This document shows, one piece after another, positions 12,465-45,570 of a stretch of DNA of 50,462 nucleotides. Within the stretch, counting starts at the first letter, position 1; each line of letters begins with the position of its first letter. The position numbers and the translations under genes are program-made. Source of the stretch: Hyphomonadaceae bacterium (lineage in GTDB: Bacteria > Pseudomonadota > Alphaproteobacteria > Caulobacterales > Aquidulcibacteraceae); contig JACMMP010000120.1 in assembly GCA_014378995.1 (NCBI GenBank), forward strand, positions 1-50,462. Reading direction: 5' to 3'. The notes beneath the pieces were generated by a model. It saw only the letters and a list, made by a program, of their open reading frames with translations. It was not told the DNA's origin and searched no databases.

Positions 12465-12537
12465 CTGGGCCCGGCCTTCCGCACTGCTGCTTAGCGCGTC
12501 CGCGAACTCACGTCAGCGAAAATGCACGCGGCCACGG

Positions 12538-27082: not shown

Positions 27083-27103
27083 CGGGGCTGCATAGCAGAA
27101 ACA

Positions 27104-27148
27104 TGGAGCGGGCGATGAGATTCGAACTCACGACCCCAACCTTGGCAA
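27104..27148 (-). other. Left attachment site: 45-bp tRNA-Gly 3'-end fragment
   Basis: This is identical to 44231-44275 of the intact tRNA-Gly(GCC): it covers the CCA end, acceptor 3' strand, T arm, variable region and the anticodon-stem 3' strand, and stops in the anticodon loop. The half-gene cannot make a tRNA. A break in the anticodon loop is the usual crossover location for many tyrosine integrases. Confidence 0.88.
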
Positions 27149-27219
27149 TCGTCGCAAATACTGATTCCGCTTCATTCTAGCTCTTTCCGCTTCATTCCAA
27201 ATTACCGCTGGCGAGCCGG

Positions 27220-27477
27220 TCAAGGTCGCAACCCACTGCGCCGCGATCCGCACCTTCTCAAAAACCGTTCGCCACTGCGACGCAAGGTCAGCGTTAACCC
27301 GACGACGGGACGTTCAGGCGCCCTAGGCGTCGTGGCCTGTCGCCAAACCTGCGGCGTATGAGCGATTGTGACGAGGGCTTCCCCTAGCGCCTGATCGAAT
27401 TGCGTCAGCCGGTCGGCCGCAACATCGGCGCGCGGCTCCATGAACGCCTCGACGCGAAACGTAACAACTACACTCAT
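27220..27477 (-). CDS. Small hypothetical protein at the island margin
   Basis: 85 residues from the ATG at 27477 (MSVVVTFRVEAFMEPRADVAADRLTQFDQALGEALV, read in parts). The first half is an acceptable strand-helix pattern, while the Arg-rich C-terminus is less convincing. It has no clear ribosome site and no recognised domain. It may be chance or a degraded fragment of an island gene. Confidence 0.3.
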   Translation of the reverse strand: MSVVVTFRVEAFMEPRADVAADRLTQFDQALGEALVTIAHTPQVWRQATTPRAPERPVVGLTLTLRRSGERFLRRCGSRRSGLRP

Positions 27478-27615
27478 GCGCGCCGAAACTGGCGACATGA
27501 GGGGAAGGCGTCCAACCGTTCGCCCGATTTGAAAGGCCCCGCGAACGCGGAGTGTCAAACCTGACCACTCCGACAGTCAAACCCGTTGATTTGCACGGCC
27601 CGCAAGGCGGGGTGG

Positions 27616-27642
27616 TGGCGCACCCGACCGGATTCAGACCTG
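27616..27642 (-). other. Degenerate tRNA-Arg-like 3' end (inner left repeat)
   Basis: Read on the minus strand this ends in a T-arm and an acceptor 3' strand followed by G and CCA. It matches 43879-43905 at 24 of 27 positions, in the same orientation. The T stem has a mismatch, so it is a worn copy. It lies 31 bases beyond the leuS stop and marks the edge of the cargo. Confidence 0.55.
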
Positions 27643-27672
27643 CCGCTTTCCCCTGCATCTTTGATCCAATTG

Positions 27673-30174: not shown

Positions 30175-30223
30175 AGTGGTCCGCCGTGTTGAGCGCTTTG
30201 GCTAACCACACTCTAGACTTAGA

Positions 30224-30862
30224 TCAACGGGGGAGCTTCAGCGGCAGCGGCGCAGATGTCGAAACGAGCAAGGCCAGTAATCCCGCGCGCCGAGCCCCCC
30301 GAACATCGCTAACCGGGTCGTCGCCGACGTGGAGCGTGCCGCCGGGAGACACACCGGCCAGTTCGCACGCCGCGTAAAACGCACGCCTCTGGGGTTTGGC
30401 GGCCCCGATCTCGCTGCTGGTCAGGCCGCCCACGACCAATTGAGAGCAGCCGAGCGCTTGGAGCACAGGCGTCAGTGATCCGCCCCAGTTCGAGAGAATG
30501 ACGGCCGGGACGCCAATTTCGCTGACCGAGCGCAATAGGCTGAGCGCACCCTCGCGCATCTGCCAATTGCGCGGATCTTGAAAGGACTGGATGGCGCTGC
30601 TCACTGCATCGCGTAGGCGCTCACTCGGCGCCAAACCGAGTTGATCGCGCCAAAGCTGAGTGAATTGCTCCCTCCACCCCTCGGCGCCAGACACGGCGGC
30701 GTCAAAGGCAGAGCGGCGCACGGCCCAAGCGGGCGGCCTCAACGGACGGTCCACGGTCAGGCCGGCCGCAGACAAGGCTTCGCGCAATATTTCTTCCATA
30801 GATCGCCGCGGCGTGGCCAGCGTATCCGCGAAGTCAAACGAAACGGCTTGGATGCGTGTCAT
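30224..30862 (-). CDS. HAD superfamily protein with altered first motif
   Basis: 212 residues from the ATG at 30862, which overlaps the preceding stop in an ATGA. HAD motifs: VSFDFADTL (nucleophile D10), ILSNWGG (motif II), the Lys in GAAKPQRRAF (motif III) and HVGDDPVSDV (motif IV). The residue two after the nucleophile, normally the acid/base Asp of phosphatases, is Ala12. The same change occurs in phosphonatases and some dehalogenases, so simple phosphatase activity is doubtful. A cap region of helices lies at 15-80. Function in the pathway: possibly C-O or C-P cleavage, or a catalytically weak phosphatase. Confidence 0.85.
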   Translation of the reverse strand: MTRIQAVSFDFADTLATPRRSMEEILREALSAAGLTVDRPLRPPAWAVRRSAFDAAVSGAEGWREQFTQLWRDQLGLAPSERLRDAVSSAIQSFQDPRNWQMREGALSLLRSVSEIGVPAVILSNWGGSLTPVLQALGCSQLVVGGLTSSEIGAAKPQRRAFYAACELAGVSPGGTLHVGDDPVSDVRGARRAGLLALLVSTSAPLPLKLPR

Positions 30863-31572
30863 GCCAACAAGGCGGAGCGCGCCGCCATGCACGCCGCAGG
30901 ATCGGCGCCGCTCGGATTATCCAAGACTTCGAACTCCCACCATCCATCGAAGCCCAGAGATTCCAGCCGCCTGCGAAGCGCAACGAGCGGCAAAATCCCA
31001 TCTCCTGGCATCAACCGAGGATCGAGCGTGCACCCCATAGTAGCCCGGTCCGAAACGTGGAGGATCTCGCACCGCGCTATGATCTCTTCCGGCAAATTCA
31101 TGAGTTCCGGCCACTCCACGTGAGCCACGTCGAGGACAAGACCGGCGCGCGATCGGGGGAGCATCTCCAGAATCTGGATCGCGTCGGGCACTGAACGTAG
31201 CGCCGATATCTGCGACAGGGCGCTGCAAAGAGGCTCCAAACAGATCCGTCCCTCTACCCGCTCCAACACACCCGCGAGCATGTCTCCAAACTGTTGGAGC
31301 GTGCCCTCCCACGAAGAGGTTGGGATCACGATCACCGGCGCCAAGGCTTGCGTTCGCGTGAGCAAATCTTCAAGCGCCCCCTCAGCGGCGCGCTCCCGAT
31401 CTGCGAAGAAGACGTAGACACCGCTGCAGGCCAAACCGCCTAGATTGGCAGGCGCCTCCGCGAAATGTGACGCCGCGAGGCCGACGCCATCGAATCCGGC
31501 CTGCTCTATTCGATCGAGGATATCGGGCGCTCGTGCGTGAACTGCGGCGAAGCTGTTGAACGACCACTTCAT
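30859..31572 (-). CDS. Xylose isomerase-like TIM-barrel protein (sugar isomerase/epimerase)
   Basis: 237 residues of the AP endonuclease 2/xylose isomerase-like barrel family. The four metal-site regions are visible: ICLEPL, VLDVAHVEW, ILHVSDRA and WWEFEV, giving Glu, Asp/His, His and Glu ligands. In this family such enzymes isomerise or epimerise sugars, inositols or hydroxypyruvate. It overlaps both neighbours by 4 bases (ATGA), so it is made with the Gfo/Idh and HAD proteins. That trio suggests oxidation, epimerisation and dephosphorylation of a sugar or cyclitol. Confidence 0.85.
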   Translation of the reverse strand: MKWSFNSFAAVHARAPDILDRIEQAGFDGVGLAASHFAEAPANLGGLACSGVYVFFADRERAAEGALEDLLTRTQALAPVIVIPTSSWEGTLQQFGDMLAGVLERVEGRICLEPLCSALSQISALRSVPDAIQILEMLPRSRAGLVLDVAHVEWPELMNLPEEIIARCEILHVSDRATMGCTLDPRLMPGDGILPLVALRRRLESLGFDGWWEFEVLDNPSGADPAACMAARSALLA

Positions 31573-32573
31573 GCGCCGTCATCCGCCACGCGGACTGTAC
31601 GGCCATCTTTGATACTCTGCTCCACAGCCATCAGCAGAGCGAGCACGCGGCCATGCCGGCCGAGACCAAGCGTGACGGCGTCCTCATCTCGGATCAAGTG
31701 ATCGACGAGACGTTCATTGAGCTTCTCTAGATCCATCATCGCGCCGCCGTCGTCGTCGACCTGTTGGTAGTGCTGGTCACGGAAGAGCTTCCCATCAATC
31801 ACTTCAAGGACGCCGCTCGTTCCTTCCAGGCAAACGCCGGAGAAGTAAGTGCGAAAGGGTCCGCGCAGCCGTGACCACCGCGACAGAATCTGAATGACCT
31901 CGCCTTCTTCACCCCGCAGCAAGGCAGAAACGTCGGCTTGGCCGGGAAACGGGCTCCAGCGTGGGTTCCACGCCTGTGCGCTCACTTCAACCGCGCGAAA
32001 GTCGGGTAGCCATTCAAGAGCCAGGTCGAGTTGATGGACCATTCCCTCCCACAGACTGGGAAACGCCATCTCACGTCGCCAAGCCCATCCGGGCGCCCAG
32101 AACGTGCCGTCGACTTCAACATCCAATCGGAGATACCCCGGTCGGCCGATGCGCCCTTCACGCACCTGCCGCTGAAGCGCGATGAACGCCGGCAAAAATC
32201 GCTTCTGCATGGCGACGAACGCCATCCCGCTCTTTTCGCTGACCGCGCGATCTATGGCGCGCGCTTCCTGCGCGGTCCACGCCGCCGGCTTTGCTAGAAC
32301 GAACCGCCGCGCTCTGTCCGCGATTGCAGCGATCCTGTCTGCGCGCTGCATCGGCGGCGTGCTGTCGATCAACACATCCGCACTGCCCTCCCATGCCGCC
32401 AACGACGGAAAGCAACGGTCACGCGGCGTGCGGAAGACTTGGCGTGCGACCTCGAGCGCTTCGCGATCGGTGTCGATCAATGCGGCCACGCGCATTCCTG
32501 ACGCAGAGATCGCCGCGCGCCAAGTTTGACCAAAACCGCCAACGCCAAGCAGGACAACGTCACGCCAAGTCAT
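31569..32573 (-). CDS. Gfo/Idh/MocA family oxidoreductase (first of two in the island)
   Basis: 334 residues. The Rossmann motif GVGGFGQTW opens the protein after VVLL, Asp near ALIDTD selects the cofactor, and DVLIDSTPPMQRAD follows. The family EKP motif reads LAKPAAW: the Lys is kept but the Glu is Ala. The C-terminal alpha/beta domain has WEGMVHQLDLALEWL, supplying the His/Asp often used in catalysis. It should oxidise or reduce a sugar or cyclitol hydroxyl using NAD(P). Coupled by 4-base overlaps on both sides. Confidence 0.88.
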   Translation of the reverse strand: MTWRDVVLLGVGGFGQTWRAAISASGMRVAALIDTDREALEVARQVFRTPRDRCFPSLAAWEGSADVLIDSTPPMQRADRIAAIADRARRFVLAKPAAWTAQEARAIDRAVSEKSGMAFVAMQKRFLPAFIALQRQVREGRIGRPGYLRLDVEVDGTFWAPGWAWRREMAFPSLWEGMVHQLDLALEWLPDFRAVEVSAQAWNPRWSPFPGQADVSALLRGEEGEVIQILSRWSRLRGPFRTYFSGVCLEGTSGVLEVIDGKLFRDQHYQQVDDDGGAMMDLEKLNERLVDHLIRDEDAVTLGLGRHGRVLALLMAVEQSIKDGRTVRVADDGA

Positions 32574-33130
32574 GCGACAGTCCGCCCAATCTGCCCGAGG
32601 ATAAGTTGCACAGGTTCAATCATGAGACCGGCAAACTCCGCACATACTGCAAGCGTTTCAAGCGGCATCTCTAGCCTCGATGATCCAACTTTCCAGAAGA
32701 AACGCCGTGCATGGCCGCGCTCTAAGTCCCACCGCGTCGCCTCCGCATGAACCCACGTCGGCCGGTCAATCCATTCGATCGCGCCGACGTCCTGAGCGCG
32801 GACATATTTCCAGGTTCGTCCGGCGCCGATCGGCCCGCCAATCACTTCGTACTGAGCGCTCAGTTCGCGCCAGTGATCGGTCACGTTCACGCAGCCAACA
32901 AGCAGCGCCGCCGCGGGCTTGACCATTGCTTCGTCAGCGGCCACCTGACGCCAACGTTGCAAGCCTACAGAATGAAATGCGCTAACGGCGATCGTCCTGC
33001 CAAGGTCGTCAAACTCTTCTGCGGACACCGGAAGAGATGAAACAAATACCGCGCTCGATGGACGGTAGAAAGCATGGGACGCCGCGATCGCGCGTTCGAG
33101 ACAAACGCCAGCGATCGCCGCAACCCTCAT
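32570..33130 (-). CDS. Unknown protein in the island operon
   Basis: 186 residues, no family recognised. It starts MRVAAIAGVCLERAIAASHAF and contains short strands and helices with a Trp-rich C-terminal half (RPTWVHAEATRWDLERGHARRFFW, read in parts). Residues ALLVGCVNVTDHWREL look like a buried strand followed by a helix. No membrane segment or cofactor motif. Four-base overlaps with the radical SAM gene upstream and the Gfo/Idh gene downstream tie it firmly to the pathway, perhaps as a new enzyme or an accessory subunit. Confidence 0.75.
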   Translation of the reverse strand: MRVAAIAGVCLERAIAASHAFYRPSSAVFVSSLPVSAEEFDDLGRTIAVSAFHSVGLQRWRQVAADEAMVKPAAALLVGCVNVTDHWRELSAQYEVIGGPIGAGRTWKYVRAQDVGAIEWIDRPTWVHAEATRWDLERGHARRFFWKVGSSRLEMPLETLAVCAEFAGLMIEPVQLILGQIGRTVA

Positions 33131-35217
33131 GACGCGGCGTGGGGTCGAAGCCGGACGCCGATCTGCTTTTCCTTGTGCCCAATCCGAGCCAAGACCTGTT
33201 CGAACTGGCGTTCACTGGCGCCATGAACGCCGATCACGTCACGCGGCTTGCCATGAAAATCCGACCCGCCCGTTTCCAGCATGTCCAACGTGCTGGCCAA
33301 TTGCCAGAGCCGCAGTCGAGTGTCGTCATCGTTGAGCCGATGCGTGACCTCGATTCCATCAAGACCCTCGGCGTGAAGGTGCGCCACAGCCTGAAGGATC
33401 GAGTCAAACGTGCCGGACTTAACACCGATGTTCCGGACCCAAGCAGGATGCGCCAGAACAGTGACGCACCCAAGCTCCTCCGCCCAGCGCACGAGTGAGA
33501 CGCAATCGAGGCCAGACGCCGTCTTTCTATCTGCGGAAATCTTGCCGATTAGCTCGTTTTTCGCGTGATCGACCGACACGTTCGCCAGGCGCGAAACCGC
33601 CTCTGCGAGAGGAGTCCGGTTGTAGGTCAGCTTCCGCGCGGACAATTCCGACACCGGATCGCTCACGCGATAGATTTCCTCGATCGGCGGCAGATCGGGC
33701 CATTGCGCCAACAGGCGCTCATAAACTTCGGAGATGAAGTCGATCTCCGCGTTGTTTGCGCCGGCGATCCATTCATGGAAGGCCGCGTCAAGCACGCCCG
33801 GACCGTAGACCAAAACGTGCACTCGGAACGCTTGCTCGCCGTCGGGCGCGTAATAGTTGGCGCTCACTTCAGTAGCGGGAATTGGGCAGTCCAGTCCGCA
33901 CTCAGCGGCATAAGCCTGGAGCGCCGGCCAATTTGGGTGAACGCCATTGTGCTCCGTGAAGACTGCACGGCGTACGCCACCGGCTAGCAGCGCATGCACA
34001 ACCTCACTCGGACAAAGCATTCCATCGGACACGGTGGAGTGCAGATGCATGTCGTGATCGTAGCGCACCGGCGCGGGCGTCGTCCTTGCTCGGGCGTCGG
34101 CGGCGGGATAGCGGCCTGGACGATCCACTCGAACGCGACTTAGCGAATCAACCATGGCCGCACGATCAGCGTCGAAGATAAAACTCGAGCTCGACAACCA
34201 GCTGGAATAGAGCAAGTTGTTGGGCATGTGGATGAGGCGCCTGATTTTGCGATCAGGATCAGGAACATCTGCGCCTCGGTCTACGCTGATCTCAGTTGCT
34301 CCGTGGCGGAGTATGTAGAGATCATAGTCCGCCTCCTGCCGGCTAAAGGTCTCGGTCCACCCTTCGGCGCACAGCGCATCTCGCAGCTCAGCTGTCGTCA
34401 GATCATTCAGAGCGGAATTGGCCTCAGCATAGGAGCTTGAAAGCGTGTAGCGCTGCGGCAGGTTGCTTGGGAGACGGAATACGAAGTCATTGACACCCAG
34501 TCGCCGGCCCCACTCAATGTACCGCCGCACACCCTCAACGTCCGCCACGCCGTCCGGAAGCATGAAACAGCTCAATCGCGTGCGTATGGCGGCGGCTAGA
34601 ACGGCCAGTTCGGCGTCGGCCAATGAGGCGCTGTCAGGCATGCGCATCAATGCTGCGTTCAGTTTCTGGTCGATCGCGGCTCGGCTGAGCGATACTTCGC
34701 CCAGGCCCTGCTGAATCAACGCGTCGAGCAACACGCCGCCATCGCTCCGCCGCTTCAGGACGCGCGAGCCATTGGTGTGCAGGCGTTTAAACCCCGGCAA
34801 TGTCCGAGACACCTCGATAGCGTTCAAGAGCTTTGCCGGCAGCAGCGTCGGTTCACCGCCAGAAAACGACACGTTCGCAACACCGCCCGCCTGGGCGAAT
34901 GCGACCGATCGTTCGAAGGAACGCGACGCCTGAGCGGCGCTCGAGTTGACGTCAGGAAAAAACGTCGCGCCGTTGAAGCAGAAGCTACAGGCCGCATTGC
35001 AAACGGCGGTCAAGTTGAACGTCAGTGTCGCCTTGCTGCTGACGAGATAGTAAGCGCCGTCAAACGGCGTCACCGTAATGTTGCGATAACGTACACCATC
35101 AACGACGACGCCCTCGTCGCCAATAAAGCCGGCGTATGAGCCATGCGCCAATTCCTCGGCAGAGAACGCCTTCTGCCAGGGCGCTCGCTTGCGATATGGA
35201 TCGAGCGGCGCGTTCAT
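33127..35217 (-). CDS. Radical SAM enzyme fused to a PHP-type phosphoesterase domain
   Basis: 696 residues from the ATG at 35217 (ATGA overlap with the previous stop). Residues 60-330: radical SAM domain with CNAACSFC (C73, C77, C80 for the 4Fe-4S cluster) and SGGEP (119-123) binding SAM. Residues 386-690: PHP domain with every metal motif, HLH (390-392), TEHN (420-423), ATEVSANYY, RVHVLVYG, LAHPAW and GGSDFHG. No Cys-rich SPASM tail is obvious. A radical SAM step combined with a metal-dependent phosphoesterase in one chain suggests a radical rearrangement followed by, or requiring, phosphate-ester hydrolysis. I know of no characterised protein with this order; both halves look active. Confidence 0.88.
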   Translation of the reverse strand: MNAPLDPYRKRAPWQKAFSAEELAHGSYAGFIGDEGVVVDGVRYRNITVTPFDGAYYLVSSKATLTFNLTAVCNAACSFCFNGATFFPDVNSSAAQASRSFERSVAFAQAGGVANVSFSGGEPTLLPAKLLNAIEVSRTLPGFKRLHTNGSRVLKRRSDGGVLLDALIQQGLGEVSLSRAAIDQKLNAALMRMPDSASLADAELAVLAAAIRTRLSCFMLPDGVADVEGVRRYIEWGRRLGVNDFVFRLPSNLPQRYTLSSSYAEANSALNDLTTAELRDALCAEGWTETFSRQEADYDLYILRHGATEISVDRGADVPDPDRKIRRLIHMPNNLLYSSWLSSSSFIFDADRAAMVDSLSRVRVDRPGRYPAADARARTTPAPVRYDHDMHLHSTVSDGMLCPSEVVHALLAGGVRRAVFTEHNGVHPNWPALQAYAAECGLDCPIPATEVSANYYAPDGEQAFRVHVLVYGPGVLDAAFHEWIAGANNAEIDFISEVYERLLAQWPDLPPIEEIYRVSDPVSELSARKLTYNRTPLAEAVSRLANVSVDHAKNELIGKISADRKTASGLDCVSLVRWAEELGCVTVLAHPAWVRNIGVKSGTFDSILQAVAHLHAEGLDGIEVTHRLNDDDTRLRLWQLASTLDMLETGGSDFHGKPRDVIGVHGASERQFEQVLARIGHKEKQIGVRLRPHAAS

Positions 35218-35819
35218 GCGCAACCAATATCAAGAATCGCGAGCGCTTCGCGCTGAACAGATTCGATTGACTCACGCCGATTGCGCGCGATGAGGGCGGC
35301 GAGCAAGCTGTGATGCGGCGCACAGACAACGCGGACCGATTCCAGCGGAAGCGGCTCCAGACTTCCAAGGAGACATTGTCCCAGTGGGGCCTCAGAAACG
35401 CGGTAGGCCAGTATCTCGATCACATCGCTCGTCGATGTCTCCGCCGGCAGGTCAGAGATCATACATGCTGTGCTGCGCGTCTCCGCCAACGTTGTGTCGA
35501 GACGGCGCGCCAATGTTTCGACCATGGCGTCGCTTGGCCCTGCGCCCGCTAGAACGAGCGTTGAACGACCCCAGAGGCCTCCAGCGCGTCCTTTTTGCTC
35601 AGCGAGCCAACCAGTGACGTGCGCCAATCTGCTGCGCAGGCCGCTTACGCTGTCGATCGCTTGACCGAGGTCCCAGACCATCATCAAGTGCTTCGCGTCA
35701 GCGCGTTCTGGTTCGGTCCGCCACGCCTTCACGCTCATCAGCGCGCGCGTCGATGCGACCCGAACGAAGAAGCTAACGGAATCTGCGCCAGGCCGCGCAG
35801 AGAATACTTGCCCCCCCAT
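35214..35819 (-). CDS. Unknown protein, first gene of the left island operon
   Basis: 201 residues from the ATG at 35819, which has GAAGGAAG about 9 bases ahead; an in-frame ATG at 35858 has GGAG only 2 bases away and is less likely. The middle holds GGLWGRSTLVLAGAGPSDAMVETLARRL, a strand followed by a glycine-rich loop, and further strands (ESVRVVCAPHHSLLAALIARNR, read in parts). I recognise no family. It ends ILDIGCA, with the stop inside the start of the radical SAM-PHP gene. Only 55 bases separate it from the divergent Gfo/Idh gene, so both promoters must lie in or close to that gap. Confidence 0.7.
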   Translation of the reverse strand: MGGQVFSARPGADSVSFFVRVASTRALMSVKAWRTEPERADAKHLMMVWDLGQAIDSVSGLRSRLAHVTGWLAEQKGRAGGLWGRSTLVLAGAGPSDAMVETLARRLDTTLAETRSTACMISDLPAETSTSDVIEILAYRVSEAPLGQCLLGSLEPLPLESVRVVCAPHHSLLAALIARNRRESIESVQREALAILDIGCA

Positions 35820-35874
35820 GGCGAACGCTTCCTTCGCTAAAAATTGTGCCCTAGACATAACTCCAGATTGTAGG

Positions 35875-36999
35875 ATGGCGTCACATCCCGGGGGTGTCGA
35901 GGTGTTTTTTTCCGGGGGAGCCGAGTTCGCTGACGGCCAATTGAACATCGTCGCCGTCGTCGGTTGCGGAAAAATCGCCCAGCTCAAATATCTGCCAGCA
36001 TTGAGCGCCGCCGGCATCGAGACAATCCTGCTCACCGACCACTCACCGTCTCTGGCGGCGGCCGCGGCCTCCGCACTCGGACCGAGTGCGCATGTCGTTT
36101 CAGATTTGTCGCAACTCATCGAGAGACAGCCGCAACTCGTGTTCGTTCTGAACCACGATCACTTCGAAACGGCGCGCCGCCTGCTTGATTCTCAATGCGC
36201 CGTGATTTGCGAAAAGCCGCTATGCTGGCGCGCGCGCGAGGCAGAAGAGCTGGTGAGCATCGCCAGACGGCGCGAAGCGCCGCTCAGAGCCGCCTACTTC
36301 CGCCGCTACGATCCTCTCGTACAAACGGCCCTTGACGCGGTGGACTCCCGCGGTCCGCCACAGACTATCGTCATTCGCCAGCATGCGGGCCTCGCGGCAA
36401 AGGCGATCGCGTTTGCCGACCTAAAGCCTCCGGCTGAAGACCGGCAAGGAATAAAGGCCGCATTGGAATCAGCCTGGGAAAGGCGGCTCTCCGCGTTGCC
36501 CCCCAAGCCCGCGCGCCAAGCCGTCAGGCTGCTCCTGGAGTTGCTCATTCACGATCTCGACTTGCTCGGATGGATCGCACGTCGGGCTTTTCGCGTCCGC
36601 GACGCATGGATCGAGCACGACGCATCTACGATGAGCGTACGTGTTGAACTGGAGAGCGACGAAGGCTGGAGGTGCTCCGTCACGTGCGCACCGCAATTTA
36701 GCGGCCCTCACGCGTGGCGACATGAATGGGACCTCGGATGGGACGAAGAGAAGCTCTCGATCCAATTCGGCAATCCATTCGCTTTCACAAACGAGGGTAC
36801 GGTGGAGTGGCGGCGCGCAGATGAATCGGTTGAACGCCTTCATGCGCCGCTAGCCGACCCGTTCGCACTCATGATATCCGACGCCTTAAGTCACACGATT
36901 GGCGAACGCCGGCCCCACCAATCAGCCTTGGATGCGGTGCAGACCCTGAGCCTGATCGAAGCCATTGAAGCAAAGCTCAAGACAGGGGTTGCGGCATGA
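35875..36999 (+). CDS. Gfo/Idh/MocA family oxidoreductase (second of two in the island)
   Basis: 374 residues if the ATG at 35875 is used; a GTG at about 35899 or TTG at 35941 just before NIVAVVGCGKIAQ is also possible because the N-terminal 22 residues look unfolded. Rossmann motif VVGCGKIAQLKYL, LLTDHS for the cofactor ribose, and an intact EKP motif (VICEKPLCW). The C-terminal domain has ELLIHDLDLLGWIARR with the conserved His-Asp pair. It should act on a sugar-like alcohol with NAD(P). The divergent partner operon starts 55 bases away; the downstream kinase overlaps by 4 bases. Confidence 0.88.
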   Translation: MASHPGGVEVFFSGGAEFADGQLNIVAVVGCGKIAQLKYLPALSAAGIETILLTDHSPSLAAAAASALGPSAHVVSDLSQLIERQPQLVFVLNHDHFETARRLLDSQCAVICEKPLCWRAREAEELVSIARRREAPLRAAYFRRYDPLVQTALDAVDSRGPPQTIVIRQHAGLAAKAIAFADLKPPAEDRQGIKAALESAWERRLSALPPKPARQAVRLLLELLIHDLDLLGWIARRAFRVRDAWIEHDASTMSVRVELESDEGWRCSVTCAPQFSGPHAWRHEWDLGWDEEKLSIQFGNPFAFTNEGTVEWRRADESVERLHAPLADPFALMISDALSHTIGERRPHQSALDAVQTLSLIEAIEAKLKTGVAA

Positions 37000-37835
37000 T
37001 TTGGGCTGTCGGCGAACTCGCGCTTCACGTCTTTGTCCCGCTATCCCCTGACGAGCCGCTGGCGCTTCAGGGCCATAGTCACGTTCAGCTTGGCGGCGGT
37101 GCTGGAATGATCGCCAGAGCAGCGGCGGCGTCCGGCAAGCCAGCAGGACTGATCGGCGTGGTCGGCGGCGACGCGACCGGCGATCTCATCGCGCAGCTCG
37201 CATCTTCCTCGGCGGCGTCCAGCCTCGTTGCGCGCGACACCGAGAACGGCAGTTCGGTCGTGTACTTGCATGCCTCGCGCGAAAAGCTAGAGCGCGTGAC
37301 ATTTGCACCGGGCGGACCGCGCATGGCTCTCTGCTTAGAAAGCCTCGACCATATCAAAGCGGGAGCTCCCGTCTATTGCCCAGCATTTCCGGGGTATGAC
37401 GAAGTCTTGCGCGCACTCGCGGCGCGGGACGTTCAACTAATCGTCGACATAGGATTCGCCCCCTGGCTCGGCGACACGGCGCGATTGCAGCGAGCTACCG
37501 AGGACGCGCCTGACTGTGCATGCATGATGATCAGCTGCGCCGGTCTGTCGCCGGAAGAGATTCAAGCGCTCGCCGAGAGAGCGGCGCGAAAGACAAGCCG
37601 CGTCCTGGCCACAGCTGGCGCGCGAGCGGCGCTCATTCGCGACCGCGAAGAACTCTTTTGGCGCCAACCGCCGCCTGCAAAAGTGGTGCGCTGTGACGTC
37701 GGCGCGGGAGACATCGTGGCTCATACCCTCCTGCAGGCTCTCGATGACGGGACGCCATTTGTCAGCGCCTGCGAAAGAGCCCTCAGCGCAGCGAGCGCAC
37801 ACGTGGGACGTTGGGGCGTCGAGGTCAGATCATGA
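36996..37835 (+). CDS. PfkB-family carbohydrate kinase
   Basis: 279 residues. The N-terminal glycine-rich GGGAG (33-37) and GVVGGDATGD (54-63) are the family's substrate-side motifs. The C-terminal signature is DVGAGDIVAH with GAGD at 236-239, so the catalytic base D239 and the anion hole are intact. PfkB kinases phosphorylate sugars or nucleosides (ribose, fructose, adenosine). The lid strand region LHASREKLERVTFAPGG is short. It is coupled by 4-base overlaps to the Gfo/Idh gene before and the GGDEF-kinase fusion after. It probably phosphorylates the pathway's sugar or nucleoside. Confidence 0.9.
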   Translation: MIWAVGELALHVFVPLSPDEPLALQGHSHVQLGGGAGMIARAAAASGKPAGLIGVVGGDATGDLIAQLASSSAASSLVARDTENGSSVVYLHASREKLERVTFAPGGPRMALCLESLDHIKAGAPVYCPAFPGYDEVLRALAARDVQLIVDIGFAPWLGDTARLQRATEDAPDCACMMISCAGLSPEEIQALAERAARKTSRVLATAGARAALIRDREELFWRQPPPAKVVRCDVGAGDIVAHTLLQALDDGTPFVSACERALSAASAHVGRWGVEVRS

Positions 37836-39223
37836 CGACAAATCCGGGCGACTCCGACGCCGACAATCTTCAGCGCATCCAAGCCGACCACGCGATAGAA
37901 GAAAGCGTGAAGGCCGAGATCCGCGCGCTGTGTGTTAACGCCGCCGCGCCGATCTCGATCATCTGCATCGACATCGACAAAATTGCAGTCATACGAGCGG
38001 CGGGCATCGCGTCGAAGCTTCACGTTCTCAAGCAGCTCGCCGCGCGCGTTCAAAACGCGATCCCTGATGCGGCGCATTTCTACGACATCGGAACGCGCGA
38101 CGAATTCGTCGTGGTTCTACGAGAAGCGACGGACGCGACCACAGCGGATACGGCAGAAACCGTGCGCGCTGCGATCTCAAAATCGCCGGTTCACACACCG
38201 GACGGCGCGGAGCATACGCTAACCGCTTCGCTGGGGACCGGAATCTGGCCCGTCGACGCCGTGGACCCGGAATTTGTCTACGCCCTTGCAAAAGGCGCCA
38301 GCGCCGCCGCAAAGGAGGCCGGGCGCAATACAGTCGTCGCTGCGACGCCGTGCAACGGTCTCGCTCAGCTGTCTTTCGACGCACCGCGGCAACGCATGGA
38401 TTCGCTTCGGGCAACGAGCGCGAATCTTATGCGTCCGATGTCGACGCTCGTACTCGACGCGATTGATCTGGCTTGCCAGCGCCACGCGGGGCTCGAACAA
38501 TTCCACAAAGGGCTGGAGTTCGCTTTAAGCCGTCATTTGCGGCAACACACCGGACTAGGAAGCACAATCATCGTTAGCGGTCCGCCGGGCAGCGGCAAAA
38601 GCTCGCTTGCGAACCAATTGCGCAGCAAACGTCGCTCCCGTGTGTTCGCTGTGCGGCCGCAGCTGAACCACCTGCGCAGCGCCGGCGCCGAGCTCGCGGC
38701 CGAGATCGACGCCATCCTCGCCACTGAAAAGTTTATTCCGGACGCGTTGGTCGGAAAAATGCTCAGTGCATACCTGCACGAAACGCTCGCGAGCGACGAC
38801 ATCATTCTAGAAGGCGTGCCGATCTCGCGAGGCCAAGCATTTGTCGTTGAAAAGGCGCTGATCAACTCACAAAGAACGATTGATCTAATCGTCTTCTTGA
38901 ACGCCGACCCTGACACGGTTCGCCGCCGGGTTGAGGCGAGACGCATCTGTCTCGATTGCGAGGCGACGACGCAAGCGGGGCGTTCCTATAGCGACGGGGA
39001 AACCACGTGCCCCGATTGCGGCAAGCCACTCACGCGCCGCCGCGACGACGAAATGCAGCACTTGGAGCGTCGCTTAGCGCAATACCAGGCAGAACGAAGC
39101 TTAGTCAGCGCCGCGCTCGGACACTATCCCACATTAGAGCTCAACTCCGAGTCGCTCTCTACCGTGGAGATCGCAACAATCGTTCTGGGCGCCATCGACC
39201 GCGATACCGATGAACATCCCTAG
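37832..39223 (+). CDS. Degenerate GGDEF-like domain fused to a zinc-lid adenylate-kinase-like domain
   Basis: 463 residues from the ATG at 37832 (ATGA overlap with pfkB). Residues 35-170 follow the GGDEF fold: ICIDIDK (metal Asp D47), VLKQLAARVQ, then DIGTRDEFVVVL where GGDEF should be (87-92), LTASLGTGIW and AKEAGRNTVV at the end. The signature loop is altered to GTRDEF. Residues 243-455 form an adenylate-kinase-like P-loop domain: GPPGSGKS (250-257), ILEGVPISRGQA (like LDGFPRT in adenylate kinases) and a zinc LID with C373, C376, C393 and C396. It probably transfers phosphate to a nucleotide-like substrate, with the GGDEF part as a nucleotide-binding or altered cyclase module. Confidence 0.85.
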   Translation: MTTNPGDSDADNLQRIQADHAIEESVKAEIRALCVNAAAPISIICIDIDKIAVIRAAGIASKLHVLKQLAARVQNAIPDAAHFYDIGTRDEFVVVLREATDATTADTAETVRAAISKSPVHTPDGAEHTLTASLGTGIWPVDAVDPEFVYALAKGASAAAKEAGRNTVVAATPCNGLAQLSFDAPRQRMDSLRATSANLMRPMSTLVLDAIDLACQRHAGLEQFHKGLEFALSRHLRQHTGLGSTIIVSGPPGSGKSSLANQLRSKRRSRVFAVRPQLNHLRSAGAELAAEIDAILATEKFIPDALVGKMLSAYLHETLASDDIILEGVPISRGQAFVVEKALINSQRTIDLIVFLNADPDTVRRRVEARRICLDCEATTQAGRSYSDGETTCPDCGKPLTRRRDDEMQHLERRLAQYQAERSLVSAALGHYPTLELNSESLSTVEIATIVLGAIDRDTDEHP

Positions 39224-39854
39224 CTCGACAAACGCCAGCGTTGCATTGGCCTTGAGCTGCGACGCGATTGGATTCGACCTCGACGATACGCTGATTGCGA
39301 CATTCGCAACCGCCTACGCGCGCGTATGCAGCGCCGCACGGAGCCTGCAGCTGAGTCCTCCGTCAATCCAGCAGTTTGAAGACATATATGGCCGAGTTTC
39401 GTTTCCGGAGTGCGTTCTGGAATGGTATAGCAACGTCGATCTTGAGACCTTCGAGCGCGCCTATCGTGAGCACTCGCCGCGGCATCCCTACCGAGCGCTC
39501 GTTGACGGAAAGGCGCTTCTCGAAATGCTACGCGCAAGACGCAAGAGCGTAGGCCTCATCACCAATACGCCGCGCGAAAAAATCCCCGCGAAACTCGCAG
39601 TCGTCGGACTCACGACCGAGTCATTCGATCACGTCATCAGCGCCGATGACGTCGGTGCGCCAAAGCCCGACCCAGCAGTCTTGCACGCATGGATCAACGC
39701 GAGCGGCCGAGATCGCAGCGCACATTGCTACATCGGTGATTCGCCGGCGGACCAAGCAGCTGCTGCGGCTGCAGGAATCAAGTTTGTCGCCGTGCAAGCG
39801 AGGGATCGTATCGAGGCGCCGACAATGACTTCCGTCGCAGCATTTCTTGAATGA
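39210..39854 (+). CDS. HAD-superfamily phosphatase (phosphoglycolate phosphatase-like)
   Basis: 214 residues. All motifs are intact: GFDLDDTLIATF (nucleophile D23, acid/base D25), LITNTP, GAPKPDPAV and YIGDSPADQAAA. A helical cap lies at 35-95. It should remove phosphate from a small sugar or nucleotide monophosphate. The start lies 14 bases inside the end of the GGDEF-kinase gene. Its 3' end overlaps the 3' end of the convergent zinc-lid kinase gene by 77 bases. Confidence 0.88.
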   Translation: MNIPSSTNASVALALSCDAIGFDLDDTLIATFATAYARVCSAARSLQLSPPSIQQFEDIYGRVSFPECVLEWYSNVDLETFERAYREHSPRHPYRALVDGKALLEMLRARRKSVGLITNTPREKIPAKLAVVGLTTESFDHVISADDVGAPKPDPAVLHAWINASGRDRSAHCYIGDSPADQAAAAAAGIKFVAVQARDRIEAPTMTSVAAFLE

Positions 39855-40500
39855 TCTCCATCGGTGAATCGTGAGCTTCATGCAACGTCTTTGCATACTC
39901 CGACACCTGACGCGCGTAAGCCCCTGAAACGACGGCAAGCGGCGGAAGCAATTTCAGAAGCACGCGTCTGCGCATACGCCAGCTCCGGAGCCGCTCCACA
40001 ATGCCCTCACGCTCGTCTGCGCGCGGGGCGATTGCGCCACCGCAGTTTCGACAAGCCGCCCCGCTGTCGTCCTCACTGGCGTCATCGACGCCGCCGTCGC
40101 AGGTGACACATACACGCCGCGCCAGCGCGCGCTGGCGAGCGTCGGCCGGTGACAAAAGCACCCAGACCGGCAGCAAAGCTTGCTTGGTCGCGTCCGACCA
40201 ACGCAAAAGGCGACGCGCCTGCCCCTCGGTGCCGGGGACCCCTTCAAGTATCGCATGGGGCTGACGTAAGCCTGCGCTCATCGCCTCCCAAACGAGGTCG
40301 TCTGACAACAGCGTTCCTAAAGGCGGCAACGCAACGCCGCTCATGCGAAGTGGCTCGAAGTGCTTCCGCACTGAGAAAGGCCGCGACGCGCGCGCCAGCG
40401 CCGTCGCCAGCGAACTCTTTCCAGAGCAAGGCCCGCCGAGCAGAATGACGACGGCGGAGGCAGGTGCGGCGAACACCGCGGGGGATATCGCACGGATCAC
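39778..40500 (-). CDS. Zinc-lid adenylate-kinase-like protein
   Basis: 240 residues from GTG at 40500, a GTGA overlap with the PPK2-like gene. P-loop GGPCSGKS (22-29), AILEGVPGTEGQA (84-95) and a zinc LID with C131, C134, C150 and C153 match the C-terminal half of the GGDEF fusion across the operon boundary, motif for motif. The two appear to be paralogues. Standard adenylate kinases have LDGFPRT in place of LEGVP, so the accepted phosphate group is likely different. The protein continues beyond the lid with a helical arm ending SLARRQT, coded in the 77-base overlap with the HAD gene. Confidence 0.78.
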   Translation of the reverse strand: MIRAISPAVFAAPASAVVILLGGPCSGKSSLATALARASRPFSVRKHFEPLRMSGVALPPLGTLLSDDLVWEAMSAGLRQPHAILEGVPGTEGQARRLLRWSDATKQALLPVWVLLSPADARQRALARRVCVTCDGGVDDASEDDSGAACRNCGGAIAPRADEREGIVERLRSWRMRRRVLLKLLPPLAVVSGAYARQVSEYAKTLHEAHDSPMEIIQEMLRRKSLSAPRYDPSLARRQT

Positions 40501-41249
40501 GAGCGGGGGCTCGTTCCTCGAACGAGGTTCGCCAACTCAGCGCGAACAATGGTTGCCGCTACACAATCTGCGTAGGCCCTGTCGTCGCATGGCACGTGAA
40601 ACCAACCAGCGCCGCGAGCGATAGAATCTCTTAGTACGCGCTGCGCTGCGTTGGCATGGGCCTCCGCGTTGGCGACAGCCTCTTCGTCAGCGGCGCTGTG
40701 CTTCCAGCGCATTGATGGCGTTGACCGTCGCCCTGATATCCTCGCCTCTTGCTCCTGTGCGGAAACATGCAGGTACAGTCTGCAAATGCGCACCGCGAAG
40801 TCGGAGAGGAGCGCTTCGAACGCCACGATGTGCTGCAACAGATCCACCGGATCCCGAGCGCCTCTCAGGATTTCGTGTTCAACATCGTCATAATAGGACC
40901 GATTGAACACAGCGACGCTGCCTCTCTCCGGCATCGCCGCGTGATAACGCGCCAAAAAATCCCGCCCTCCCCGGTCCGGCTCCGGGCGCCCGAAGAAACT
41001 GAACGTCACGCCGCGTGGATCGGTCGCGCCCGCCAGCATCCGACAGGTCCGGTCTTTGCCGGCGGCATTCGCGCCATACAAGATCACCAACAACGCTCCG
41101 GCGCGTGTCGCCTGCAGTTCTTGGTGCAGCGCAAGCGTATCAGTCGCAGCGCTGGTGCTGAGACGCATCGATTCCGCGACGTCCCAATCCGCCGGCGGCC
41201 GAGTGTCGAAGTCGGCCAAAACCACATCGGCGGGCAATTCACGCATCAC
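40497..41249 (-). CDS. PPK2-like P-loop kinase
   Basis: About 250 residues (GTG at 41249, or ATG at 41246 overlapping the previous stop as TGATG). Walker A GANAAGKD (59-66) sits in the context LLVILYGANAAGKDRT, followed by FFGRPEPDRGGRDFLARYH and VAVFNRSYYDDV, the lid and Walker B region of PPK2-type kinases that move phosphate between polyphosphate and nucleotides. Similarity beyond these motifs is modest, so the true substrate may be another small molecule. It is coupled to the nucleotidyltransferase gene upstream and the zinc-lid kinase gene downstream. Confidence 0.82.
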   Translation of the reverse strand: MMRELPADVVLADFDTRPPADWDVAESMRLSTSAATDTLALHQELQATRAGALLVILYGANAAGKDRTCRMLAGATDPRGVTFSFFGRPEPDRGGRDFLARYHAAMPERGSVAVFNRSYYDDVEHEILRGARDPVDLLQHIVAFEALLSDFAVRICRLYLHVSAQEQEARISGRRSTPSMRWKHSAADEEAVANAEAHANAAQRVLRDSIARGAGWFHVPCDDRAYADCVAATIVRAELANLVRGTSPRS

Positions 41250-42238
41250 AGCTGGTGCGGCCGAAGCGTTGCAGCGACTGTCGACACAAGGTCTTGCGTC
41301 ACGACCTGGACCCGCGCACTCGCGTCAAAGTCTTTCGCCGCGTCGTCTGAGACCAATAGCGGCAACGCGTTTGCAAGCGAATCGACACGATCACGCTGCT
41401 CAGCGAGCATCATGCGAACCGACATGTGTGCAACGTAAACAGCGGCGTCGTAGCTTTGTAGCTTGGAGAGTGAGCCGGCGTCCTCAAACGTCCGTAGAAT
41501 GTAGTCCTTCACCTCTTCTGACTGACACGCCTCGATCGCCGGCGTGAGCCATTCTCGCGTTGTGTCGAGAACGTCTTGCGCGCCCTCAGCAGACACGGTC
41601 CCGCAGCCATGCAAGTGACAAATCAGGTCTGCCAAATCGCCACGCCCGATCTGACGCAGACGGGCAAGCATCCATTTTGGCTTCACAAAGCCAATTGAAG
41701 AGGCCGAAGTGACACAGACACACGCCAAATCGGCCAATTGCTGCAGACAGAAAACGGCAAATGGCGAGGCAGATGCAGCGCCCGCTTGATCGGCCCAGAA
41801 CTCGATGCTCTTCGCGAAGCGCTTCGACTCGGCCGCATCAAGACACGCCACGCGCGCCTCCGTGCGCGCCTTGGAAAACTCACCGGACCGATCGAACAAT
41901 ATAATCGCGCTGGTCAGCCGCCCGCGCTCGCGCAAGAATTGAAGATCACCCGCCGCGCTTGCCAGCATTTGATGGGCAGTCCGCCACTGGATCGTCTCAA
42001 CATCGAAGCGACGGCCATCAAAGCACGCGCTTTCAATCTGCGGCGCGTTGATCTCGCCACCTTTTGCAGCGTGCAGAACCAGTAGATCGACATCAGAATC
42101 CGGTCCGGCTAGGCCGAGTGCAACCGACCCAGTCAGCAAAACGGCCCTGACGTCGGCGTCCGCCGCCAAGGCTTGCGCGCACCGCGAGGCACGCTGCTCC
42201 AGCGTTCCGCTCAGCCGCCCGGCCGCGCGCCAATCCAC
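41246..42238 (-). CDS. Nucleotidyltransferase-domain protein
   Basis: 330 residues from GTG at 42238, one base after the stop of the small gene before it. Residues 30-56 (LLTGSVALGLAGPDSDVDLLVL, read in parts) carry the pol-beta nucleotidyltransferase motif: G37-S38, then D49 and D51 as metal ligands. The rest, 100-330, is helical like the C-terminal part of antibiotic adenylyltransferases (KPKWMLARLRQIG; CHLHGCG). It probably transfers AMP or another nucleotide to a hydroxyl or phosphate of the pathway intermediate. Confidence 0.82.
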   Translation of the reverse strand: MDWRAAGRLSGTLEQRASRCAQALAADADVRAVLLTGSVALGLAGPDSDVDLLVLHAAKGGEINAPQIESACFDGRRFDVETIQWRTAHQMLASAAGDLQFLRERGRLTSAIILFDRSGEFSKARTEARVACLDAAESKRFAKSIEFWADQAGAASASPFAVFCLQQLADLACVCVTSASSIGFVKPKWMLARLRQIGRGDLADLICHLHGCGTVSAEGAQDVLDTTREWLTPAIEACQSEEVKDYILRTFEDAGSLSKLQSYDAAVYVAHMSVRMMLAEQRDRVDSLANALPLLVSDDAAKDFDASARVQVVTQDLVSTVAATLRPHQL

Positions 42239-42239
42239 G

Positions 42240-42512
42240 TTAGCTGAAAGGCGAAGCCACTATGCCGGCGGCGATGTCCGACTCGATTTCCTGGGTCAAT
42301 TGTTTGAGCTTGGCGTCCGAGGCGCGACCACGCTCGATTCGAGCAAAAACCTCCACTGACGCCAATTCAGTGAGGTTAGAAGGCATCGGCAGTCCTTCGC
42401 GCCGAATGATCGATGCTTTCGCCATTGCCTCGGCATAGGCGATTTGCTTGTCGCTCAGGCCGAGATTGTAAGTGTCAGATAAGATTCGGTAAGCTTCATA
42501 GATGTCAGCCAT
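42240..42512 (-). CDS. Small helical protein of unknown function
   Basis: 90 residues from the ATG at 42512, chosen because GGAGG lies 6 bases ahead; an upstream TTG at 42557 overlaps the aminotransferase stop but has no clear ribosome site. It begins MADIYEAYRILSDTYNLGLSDKQ and continues as amphipathic helices (YAEAMAKASIIRREG; FARIERGRASDAKLKQLTQEIESD, read in parts). No domain recognised. Being in the unit between the aminotransferase and nucleotidyltransferase genes, it may be a carrier or a partner protein. I see no phosphopantetheine DSL motif for an acyl carrier protein. Confidence 0.65.
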   Translation of the reverse strand: MADIYEAYRILSDTYNLGLSDKQIAYAEAMAKASIIRREGLPMPSNLTELASVEVFARIERGRASDAKLKQLTQEIESDIAAGIVASPFS

Positions 42513-42553
42513 GTGCCCCTCCGGGTCGGCGCAGGCAGTCTCGCAGCGCTGGA

Positions 42554-43750
42554 TCAACAGGCGTCTGCGTGGACCGCTGACTCCACAAGCCGGCTCAACC
42601 CAAGCTCCAGGAGCCCCGGGGAGATACTAAACGCTGGAGTGAGCCGTATGCAATCCCTGATTACGGAGGTGATTACGCCGCGCTCAAGGCACAGCTTGCC
42701 GACCAGCGCCGCGCGCTCCCTGCTATCGAACTCGATTGCTGCAAGTGCGCCATAAGCGCTCACGCGATGAACGCTTTTGAGATCGGTCAAAGGCGAGAGT
42801 ATGCGTCGGCACGCGCCCTCAATGTCGCGCTGACGCGCAAACACCTCTTCGGCGATCATACGATCAATGGTGGCGAGCACGAGCCGACACACGGGCGCTT
42901 GTCCGGCGGCGCTATCGGTGCCTTTGACTGTGCGTACAACATCGCCATACGCCTCGAGACACGCGATCGCCGCGAACGGCAGCCCACTCTTCCAGGACTT
43001 GCCCAGGCTGATGATGTCAGGCGCGCAGCCCTGGCCTTCAGCGTCTGACCAGAACCCCGTCCGTCCGGACGTCAAAAACTCATCGGCCAGCAATAGGATT
43101 CCGCGGGGGGCCAACACGTCACGCTTCAAACTATGCAGCCAGCCAGGCGGCGGCCTTACAACCGCCTTTGACAAAATGGGCTCGATCACCAGGCCCGCGA
43201 TCCGCGAGCTTCCCTGCGCATCAATCGCCTTGGCGACATCTTCCAGCGCCAACGGCTGCAGACGCTCACCGACAGGGCGGCGGGCGTCGTAGCCAGGATA
43301 AGGCAATTGGAAATAGCCCTCGATACGATCGCCGTTACATGGGTCCATGTCGCTCAGCGAAGCCGTGGCTTTGCTGTAGCCGTGAAAAGATCCGTAGAAG
43401 CCGCAAAATGCGTTTCGACCCGTGATCGCCATGGCGTAGCGGAGCATGCCTTCATTGGCGCCGGTCCCGGTGGAATAGAACTGAATGTGCGAATAGCCGG
43501 GATAGAGCGAGGCGATCTTGTCGGCTAACTCGTCGCGATAGCGATTGGTGTATAGCCCGAGATTCAGCGGCGGCTCACCGCTGAAGGAATCTATCAGCGC
43601 GCTCGCGTCGTGGCCAAAAGGAAGCGACGTGTTGGCGTAGAGATCAATGTATTCGCGGCCTTCGCTATCTGTCACGGTCGCGCCACGCGCCGATACAAAC
43701 TTCACATCCGCGATGGTTTGAATGCGGCCCACCGCAGGATTGTGATGCAT
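42554..43750 (-). CDS. Class III (GSA-like) PLP aminotransferase
   Basis: 398 residues. Fold type I class III features: STGTGANEG (93-101), FYGSFHGYSKAT (118-129), LADEFLTSGRTG with D223 binding the PLP pyridine nitrogen, and the Schiff-base Lys K251 in SLGKSWKSGLPFAAI. LGKSW in place of the usual LGK-G/A pattern resembles aminotransferases for sugar or unusual substrates. It would transfer an amino group to an aldehyde or ketone made by the Gfo/Idh enzymes. It opens the right minus-strand unit; no strong promoter is visible in the 120 bases upstream. Confidence 0.9.
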   Translation of the reverse strand: MHHNPAVGRIQTIADVKFVSARGATVTDSEGREYIDLYANTSLPFGHDASALIDSFSGEPPLNLGLYTNRYRDELADKIASLYPGYSHIQFYSTGTGANEGMLRYAMAITGRNAFCGFYGSFHGYSKATASLSDMDPCNGDRIEGYFQLPYPGYDARRPVGERLQPLALEDVAKAIDAQGSSRIAGLVIEPILSKAVVRPPPGWLHSLKRDVLAPRGILLLADEFLTSGRTGFWSDAEGQGCAPDIISLGKSWKSGLPFAAIACLEAYGDVVRTVKGTDSAAGQAPVCRLVLATIDRMIAEEVFARQRDIEGACRRILSPLTDLKSVHRVSAYGALAAIEFDSRERAALVGKLCLERGVITSVIRDCIRLTPAFSISPGLLELGLSRLVESAVHADAC

Positions 43751-44230: not shown

Positions 44231-44305
44231 TGGAGCGGGCGATGAGATTCGAACTCACGACCCCAACCTTGGCAAGGTTGTGCTCTACCCCTGAGCTACG
44301 CCCGC
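44231..44305 (-). tRNA. tRNA-Gly (anticodon GCC)
   Basis: A complete 75-base cloverleaf on the minus strand from 44305 to 44231: acceptor GCGGGCG/CGCCCGC, D arm GCTCAGGGGTAGAGC, anticodon arm CAACCTTGCCAAGGTTG with anticodon GCC, T arm with TTCGAAT, discriminator T and encoded CCA. It serves as the intact right attachment site of the island; its last 45 bases are repeated at 27104-27148. A weak promoter (TTGCCT, 17 bases, GATATG) lies about 45-70 bases upstream at 44376-44348, inside the neighbouring gene. Confidence 0.96.
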
Positions 44306-44316
44306 ATCCGTGGGTG

Positions 44317-44335
44317 CCCCGGATCAAGTCCGGGG
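44317..44335. repeat. CCCCGGA palindrome upstream of tRNA-Gly
   Basis: A 7-bp perfect stem CCCCGGA/TCCGGGG with a 5-base loop. It spans the stop codon of the minus-strand membrane-anchored gene and lies 12 bases before the tRNA 5' end. It belongs to a palindrome class common in alphaproteobacteria. It lacks a T-tract, so a terminator role is not supported. Confidence 0.6.
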
Positions 44336-45563: not shown

Positions 45564-45570
45564 CGCGATC

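Follow-up and report, generated by a model that had tools for sequence, protein, structure and literature searches.

A stretch of 50,462 nucleotides from a Hyphomonadaceae bacterium (contig JACMMP010000120.1; hereafter the window) contains a gene encoding a radical S-adenosylmethionine (rSAM) domain and a PHP phosphoesterase domain in one polypeptide. The gene lies in a 17.1 kb island at a tRNA-Gly gene, and its predicted operon also encodes a second leucyl-tRNA synthetase (LeuRS). We propose, with the case for and against about evenly balanced, that the cluster is a unit that phosphorylates, radically modifies and dephosphorylates its substrate to make an aminoacyl-tRNA synthetase inhibitor, the extra synthetase serving as self-resistance or as an aminoacyl donor. 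In our judgement, the island and the extra LeuRS carry most of the meaning of the rSAM-PHP protein.

Domains and catalytic motifs of the rSAM-PHP protein

The reading frame runs on the minus strand from an ATG at 35217 to a stop at 33127 and is a single open frame of 696 codons. The plus strand of 33127–35217 is interrupted by stops in the same phase. The N-terminal half matches PF04055 at 37.8 bits (cut-off 29.5, residues 68–192), which places it in the radical SAM superfamily. Its cluster motif reads C73-N-A-A-C77-S-F-C80 and is followed by GGEP at 120–123. The C-terminal part of this half holds the family motif DPDxKIRR (320–327) plus a P(N/D)...Y.SW stretch. No B12-binding domain is among the three Pfam families listed for the protein.

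The other half scores only 15.2 bits against PF02811, short of the curated cut-off of 26.4, while the PHP domains of the two homologues described below exceed it (40.4 and 35.5 bits). We took the PHP metal-ligand set to be H-x-H, D, H, E, H, H, D-x-H. Judged by this set within a PHP fold, the half belongs to the superfamily, with H391, H393, D398, H423, E450, H467, H590, D653 and H655 kept in 3/3 family members. A linker of about 27 residues joins the two complete domains. Radical SAM and PHP domains with all key motifs in one 696-residue chain, as claimed in a preliminary description of this DNA, are thus borne out, on the minus strand. That description left the strand unstated and made no mention of the island or the extra LeuRS.

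The protein reached the cut-off of none of the characterised enzyme families tested, among them MoaA (TIGR02666, 30.1 bits against 284.05), 3',5'-nucleoside bisphosphate phosphatase (NF041577, 58.7 against 400) and viperin (NF038283, 41.8 against 180). The last score, together with a weak PADLOC pVip match (E 5.7e-12) and nucleotide-kinase-like neighbours, would be expected of a viperin-like antiviral system that makes modified ribonucleotides and uses the PHP half as a control phosphatase. However, the viperin score is far below cut-off, the rSAM core alone aligns (residues 65–212), and a defence operon would not be expected to contain sugar enzymes and a LeuRS. Viperin-type defence was rejected on score and gene context, and we consider it highly improbable.

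Relatives of the rSAM-PHP pair

The rSAM and PHP pair was seen in three genomes only: that of the window, Streptomyces cellostaticus (locus L050) and a genome of SR1/Gracilibacteria type (locus L051). Single-sequence scans found no full-length relative, and two of them gave one and four records with one domain each. At E 1e-3, 17 of 398 genomes of the same order matched, the window's own over the whole length and 16 in the rSAM half only. At E 1e-7, 5 of 398 genomes across the phylum matched (its own, three through the PHP half and one through the rSAM half). Genome searches scored as a rule the two best first-look candidates per genome, and absence there is not proof. Both full relatives surfaced only through an alignment that included distant rSAMs. 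When species genomes were scanned with it, 508 stretches matched, of which 151 encoded a relative; the 80 best of these were retained. A PHP-half query at E 1e-3 against these best 80 of 151 loci, some of them only a few kb long, matched in L050 and L051 and in none of the other 78.

A family profile run at E 1e-15 matched 62 of 391 genomes of the Streptomyces order. In S. cellostaticus alone the match spanned model positions 25–375; in the others it was confined to the PHP part or the rSAM core. Of 379 genomes in the L051 phylum, 8 matched, seven of them just in the PHP part and one along its entire length. Among viruses, the family alignment and the PHP alignment each picked out a single weak relative, 27% and 21% identical respectively, and alignment A1 picked out 11 rSAM relatives. 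A plasmid search with the Streptomyces rSAM found no match at E 1e-12.

The S. cellostaticus rSAM and PHP proteins are 35% and 29% identical to the window halves and are encoded by adjacent genes; taken from the first start codon, the two frames share 4 bp. L051 encodes a fused homologue of 710 amino acids that is 29% identical over 676 columns. Its genes stay free of stops if TGA is translated as glycine (genetic code table 25, of SR1/Gracilibacteria type); 44 TGA codons are read in this way in the fusion, two of them within GGEP. DPDxKIRR and other invariant positions of the rSAM C-terminal part are common to all three members. A tree of 33 hand-picked rSAMs places the three that belong to the pairs in one group at 100/100 support, within which the Streptomyces and SR1-type members join at 95/88. 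This joining implies either two separate fusion events or one fusion that later split again. Long branches, and a warning from the tree tool that such branches may be drawn together, make the inner order tentative.

One could suspect that mis-assembly or a frameshift had fused two neighbouring genes in the window, since a one-base error could join frames that overlap as those of Streptomyces do. The same fusion, with a linker of its own, is present in a second genome that uses another genetic code. This argues strongly against chance or assembly error, and the window linker lies between two complete domains. We find an artefact barely credible. The preliminary description had itself raised a read-through, with the domains separate in all relatives; one relative is fused and one is split.

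The nearest wider rSAM relatives found are those of phages and Bacillota (Dulem virus 40, L039–L041, L053–L073), about 20–30% identical over the rSAM half. They have a C-terminal FHPNGxLxGSW-like stretch, lie across a 100/100 branch from the window rSAM and, in the kept loci, are without a match to the window PHP half. Phage and Bacillota rSAM proteins that end in FHPNGxLxGSW or similar include those at L033:4144–5948, in L039, L040 and L041, and in L052–L072. Two separate rSAM matches, read as tandem genes, were present in 17 of the 80 kept loci. SGLENT replaces SGGEPT in an rSAM-like protein of the same wider family at L036:8854–9984 (genome G547), and a Xanthomonas copy (L075) has SGLEMT at that position.

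Predicted structure and fold neighbours

An AlphaFold2 model was built from a 35-row alignment (mean predicted local distance difference test, pLDDT, 75.8; predicted template modelling score, pTM, 0.59). It has an rSAM fold at about 43–351 and a PHP fold at 387–693. The rSAM fold is most similar to tetraether synthase 7tol (Z 20.1), followed by MoaA (18.6–18.8), viperins with cytidine triphosphate (up to 17.9), SuiB (17.4), BlsE (16.9) and AbmM (14.2); a family missing from these matches is not thereby excluded. By sequence, the best PDB match of the rSAM half is AbmM (8wm2), a weak one (E 7.9e-5), and that of the PHP half, covering most of the domain, is the phosphoesterase 3e0f (E 9.1e-10). 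The PHP fold is shared with 3e0f (BAD_1165, Z 19.0), 2yb1 from C. violaceum with adenosine monophosphate bound (17.2) and RNase AM (17.1), at 17–23% identity in the structural alignments.

The island and its extra LeuRS

The island was delimited by alignment with G112, the closest of 30 genomes of the genus by two flanking proteins (M16 peptidase, 95% identical; DUF6065 protein, 94%). The two genes are 2.4 kb apart in G112, an empty site, and 19.9 kb apart in the window, where the extra DNA lies between 27148 and 44231. A perfect 45-bp direct repeat (27104–27148 and 44231–44275) is the same as the 3' end of tRNA-Gly(GCC), and both genomes have this tRNA gene intact. G+C is 61.0% in the island and 63.8% and 65.3% in the flanks. 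From these sequence features it looks like a classical tRNA-site island, and a recent one. No integrase was among the Pfam hits of the island frames, the short frames at both ends having been viewed by eye only, and Rfam at gathering scores gave tRNA only over 27000–44400. Near the right end, 43880–43935 resembles by eye the 3' end of another tRNA, although ARAGORN calls no tRNA there, and may be what is left of a previous integration site. At 44808–46317 the island is flanked by a tandem pair of DUF6065 genes that share 55% identity; a DUF6065 match is present in 28/30 genomes of the genus, the window's own included.

The island LeuRS scores 883.5 bits against a family cut-off of 548.4. Another LeuRS is encoded on contig C216 of the host genome, and the two are 39.7% identical over the whole length. 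The island copy keeps the HIGH, KMSKS and editing motifs intact and can thus be active. The long leucine-specific insert of the host LeuRS is missing from it, as it is from AgnB2, the LeuRS of the agrocin 84 plasmid pAgK84, and from a Legionella LeuRS beside lnt, lptE and holA. The AgnB2 paper itself does not tie absence of this insert to resistance (PMC5059758). By annotated names, no similar cluster was found in four plasmid leuS regions (Agrobacterium, Sinorhizobium, Legionella, Sphingomonas; 4 of 122 matching records).

An extra isoleucyl-tRNA synthetase in Streptomyces cellostaticus

In S. cellostaticus, the gene before the rSAM gene, on the same strand, encodes an isoleucyl-tRNA synthetase (IleRS; 910.4 bits, cut-off 621.4). 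A second IleRS, an intact 1047-codon frame, lies beside divIVA-, sepF- and ftsZ-like genes, the usual place of ileS, and we take it to be the housekeeping copy. Two TGA codons reported inside the second IleRS match must lie upstream of this frame. Of 1047 aligned columns, 77 differ between the two proteins (gaps account for two), which makes the duplication a recent one. In the window genome as in S. cellostaticus, therefore, a second copy of a synthetase is present in the genome and lies inside the cluster.

In both of these distant clusters, the extra class Ia synthetase is on the same strand and in the same predicted operon as the rSAM and PHP genes, with a different specificity in each. 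They also have in common the rSAM, the PHP domain, a PfkB kinase (31% identical) and adenylate-kinase-like proteins (31 and 33%). Two distant rSAM-PHP clusters with different class Ia synthetases are, in our judgement and with no probability computed, hard to explain by chance. Since both clusters of this rare family carry them, products directed at LeuRS and IleRS are suggested. The extra synthetase would then be a copy of the target of the cluster product, and a foreign island with a spare LeuRS suggests an antibiotic against that synthetase.

Also around the Streptomyces rSAM and PHP genes are a LarA-like gene (below the LarA-family cut-offs), larB, larC, and genes for an alcohol dehydrogenase and a protein with a sub-threshold FhuF-like match. 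The Lar genes, which belong to the nickel-pincer cofactor, surround the cluster at L050:2643–4708 and 12027–13331; their presence suggests a step of hydroxy-acid or sugar epimerisation there. The SR1-type cluster has HADs in common with the window (27% identical).

Gene content of the island

The features of the island are listed in Table 1. The predicted minus-strand operon encodes, in order, an unknown protein, rSAM-PHP, a second unknown protein, a Gfo/Idh oxidoreductase, a TIM-barrel enzyme, a HAD and the LeuRS. A plus-strand set (Gfo/Idh, PfkB, the GGDEF-adenylate kinase fusion and a HAD) and a further minus-strand set (aminotransferase, nucleotidyltransferase, PPK2 and adenylate-kinase-like protein) make up the other genes. 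No promoter-like consensus was found in 35100–36300, a weakly telling negative. In the GGDEF-type domain the signature is TRDEF in place of GGDEF, so the cyclase site looks degenerate.

Table 1. Features of the island and of its integration site (window coordinates; aa, amino acids).
Feature	Position	Strand	Basis or remark
Left island end, 45-bp copy of tRNA-Gly 3' end	27104..27148	.	Repeat alignment
Second leucyl-tRNA synthetase, 833 aa	27673..30174	-	HIGH, KMSKS, editing motifs kept; no leucine-specific insert
HAD hydrolase 1	30224..30892	-	Pfam
Xylose-isomerase-like TIM-barrel enzyme	30859..31572	-	Pfam
Gfo/Idh/MocA oxidoreductase 1	31569..32573	-	Pfam
Unknown 186-aa protein	32570..33130	-	First ATG overlaps rSAM-PHP stop by 4 bp (ATGA)
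rSAM-PHP fusion protein (P0001), 696 aa	33127..35217	-	Frame, Pfam, motifs, model
PHP half, residues 384-696	33130..34068	-	Nine ligand-type residues, fold
rSAM half, residues about 1-377	34087..35217	-	CX3CX2C 73/77/80; GGEP 120-123; motif alignment
Unknown protein, upstream of and overlapping rSAM-PHP	35214..36119	-	Longest frame; true start probably further in (ATG 35861)
Gfo/Idh/MocA oxidoreductase 2	35818..36999	+	Longest frame; domain begins near 35950
PfkB-family kinase	36996..37835	+	31% identical to PfkB of Streptomyces cluster
GGDEF-type domain (degenerate signature) + adenylate-kinase domain	37811..39223	+	Kinase part 31% identical to Streptomyces cluster kinase
HAD hydrolase 2	39210..39854	+	27% identical to each of two HADs beside SR1-type fusion
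Adenylate-kinase-like protein	39778..40500	-	Below curated cut-offs
PPK2-family kinase	40497..41249	-	Pfam
Nucleotidyltransferase-domain protein	41246..42238	-	Pfam
Class III aminotransferase	42554..43750	-	Pfam
Right island end, same 45 bp inside tRNA-Gly	44231..44275	.	Repeat alignment
tRNA-Gly(GCC), integration site	44231..44305	-	ARAGORN + repeat

Proposed pathway

Because the rSAM and PHP domains are found in one chain or in adjacent genes, they probably act in turn on one phosphorylated substrate. The PfkB kinase, perhaps together with the adenylate-kinase-like and PPK2 enzymes, would phosphorylate a nucleoside or sugar; a kinase of this type is common to two clusters and may supply a phosphate in each. 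The rSAM half would form a 5'-deoxyadenosyl radical and alter the sugar of the phosphorylated substrate, and the PHP half would then hydrolyse the phosphate ester, releasing the product and driving the step forward. The oxidoreductases, TIM-barrel enzyme, HADs and aminotransferase could complete a small nucleoside- or sugar-like molecule. The finished molecule is envisaged to mimic or carry leucyl-adenylate and inhibit LeuRS, and the extra LeuRS would protect the producer or might also supply leucyl-adenylate to the pathway. We infer the reaction order, substrate, product and role of the LeuRS from domains and gene context. That the cluster makes a diffusible small molecule is a view we favour somewhat over its opposite.

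The preliminary description had envisaged one protein that both carries out a radical step on a phosphorylated sugar or nucleotide and hydrolyses a phosphate ester. This idea is partly supported, by the context (nucleotide-type folds among the nearest, kinases, HADs and sugar-type oxidoreductases). A lipid enzyme, 7tol, tops the rSAM fold matches and the peptide-modifying SuiB and SkfB score close behind the nucleotide enzymes, so the fold does not fix the substrate. This is the first of several points that weigh against an aminoacyl-tRNA synthetase inhibitor as the product. The PHP half, judging from its family, would act on a small phosphate ester, and its RNase AM relatives act on RNA. The structure prediction gave the two expected folds, but the arrangement of the domains relative to each other is unreliable (pTM 0.59; linker pLDDT <50). 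By Pfam, no exporter, ligase or nucleoside-forming enzyme is recognisable among the island frames, two of which match no family. Two of the AgnB2-specific changes, looked for as resistance residues, were not found in the island LeuRS, which has KMSKS rather than KQSKS and P rather than T before the HIGH loop. Only the LeuRS of the island has a clear counterpart among the pAgK84 proteins compared (21/40). No LeuRS or IleRS relative lies within about 30 kb either side of the SR1-type fusion, so the synthetase link holds in 2/3 clusters.

This last result would be expected if the cluster modified a sugar or nucleotide destined for a cofactor or a cell-surface glycan, with the LeuRS an island passenger, and the Gfo/Idh, PfkB, HAD, TIM-barrel and aminotransferase enzymes are typical of sugar pathways. 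Yet no glycosyltransferase or flippase was recognised in the island by Pfam, and a passenger would not be expected to share a predicted operon with rSAM and PHP in two clusters that are very distant from each other. We therefore consider a glycan or cofactor pathway unlikely.

Alternatively, the extra LeuRS or IleRS could be mainly biosynthetic in the manner of AbmK and VlmL, providing an aminoacyl-adenylate or aminoacyl-tRNA from which an amide or ester bond of the product is formed, rather than a resistance copy. AbmK, the seryl-tRNA synthetase (SerRS) encoded with the rSAM AbmJ in the albomycin cluster, appears to supply seryl-adenylate, and VlmL is reported to function in seryl transfer (PMC9032320). 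The retained motifs of the island LeuRS are compatible with such a donor. On the other hand, the Streptomyces IleRS is near-identical to the other IleRS of its genome, which fits a duplicated target, and Pfam recognised no aminoacyl transferase in the island. A mainly biosynthetic synthetase thus seems to us an improbable explanation of the duplication.

Relation to known systems

The pairing of an rSAM enzyme with a phosphohydrolase has a precedent in oxetanocin A biosynthesis, in which OxsB remodels a phosphorylated nucleoside and is paired with OxsA (PMC7074753). The logic is the same, but OxsB is cobalamin-dependent and OxsA is an HD-domain protein, whereas rSAM-PHP is without a B12 domain in Pfam and its phosphatase is of PHP type and fused. 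The albomycin cluster (rSAMs AbmJ and AbmM, SerRS AbmK) is similar in having rSAMs and an extra synthetase in one cluster. Its synthetase is a SerRS, not a LeuRS or IleRS, a PHP partner is not mentioned in the available part of the albomycin source, and similarity is confined to the rSAM core.

Plasmid pAgK84 likewise carries a LeuRS without the leucine-specific domain and an rSAM gene, and AgnB2 is reported to confer self-immunity (PMC5059758). AgnB2 and the island LeuRS are 36.1% identical. When the 15 island proteins were compared with 21 of the 40 annotated pAgK84 proteins, the LeuRS alone gave a clear match (E 1e-178), the rSAM pair coming next at E 0.007. Membership of the agrocin 84 family, suggested by the second LeuRS and the pAgK84 rSAM, was rejected by this comparison.

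Word-based searches of the open-access literature, which miss other wording and are weak evidence, found no paper on an rSAM-PHP fusion, on an rSAM with IleRS or LeuRS plus self-resistance or a nucleoside antibiotic, or on duplicated aminoacyl-tRNA synthetases with self-resistance and genome mining. Pathways of this general kind, nucleoside-type with an rSAM and an extra synthetase, are known; what appears to be new is the coupling to PHP, the fusion and the variation between Leu and Ile. Tentatively, and with less than even confidence, we suggest a new pathway class in three distant lineages, in which PHP-coupled rSAM chemistry on a phosphorylated nucleoside or sugar would lead to inhibitors of class Ia aminoacyl-tRNA synthetases, the amino acid (Leu or Ile) varying and being read out by the adjacent duplicated synthetase.

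Nucleotide-acting rSAM enzymes are a source of antiviral and antibacterial nucleosides, and their pairing with a phosphatase is a known logic, as in OxsB/OxsA. Here the rSAM and the phosphatase are physically fused, and the phosphatase type differs from that of the precedents compared. Because the extra synthetases point to the likely target ahead of any known compound, the product class is directly testable.

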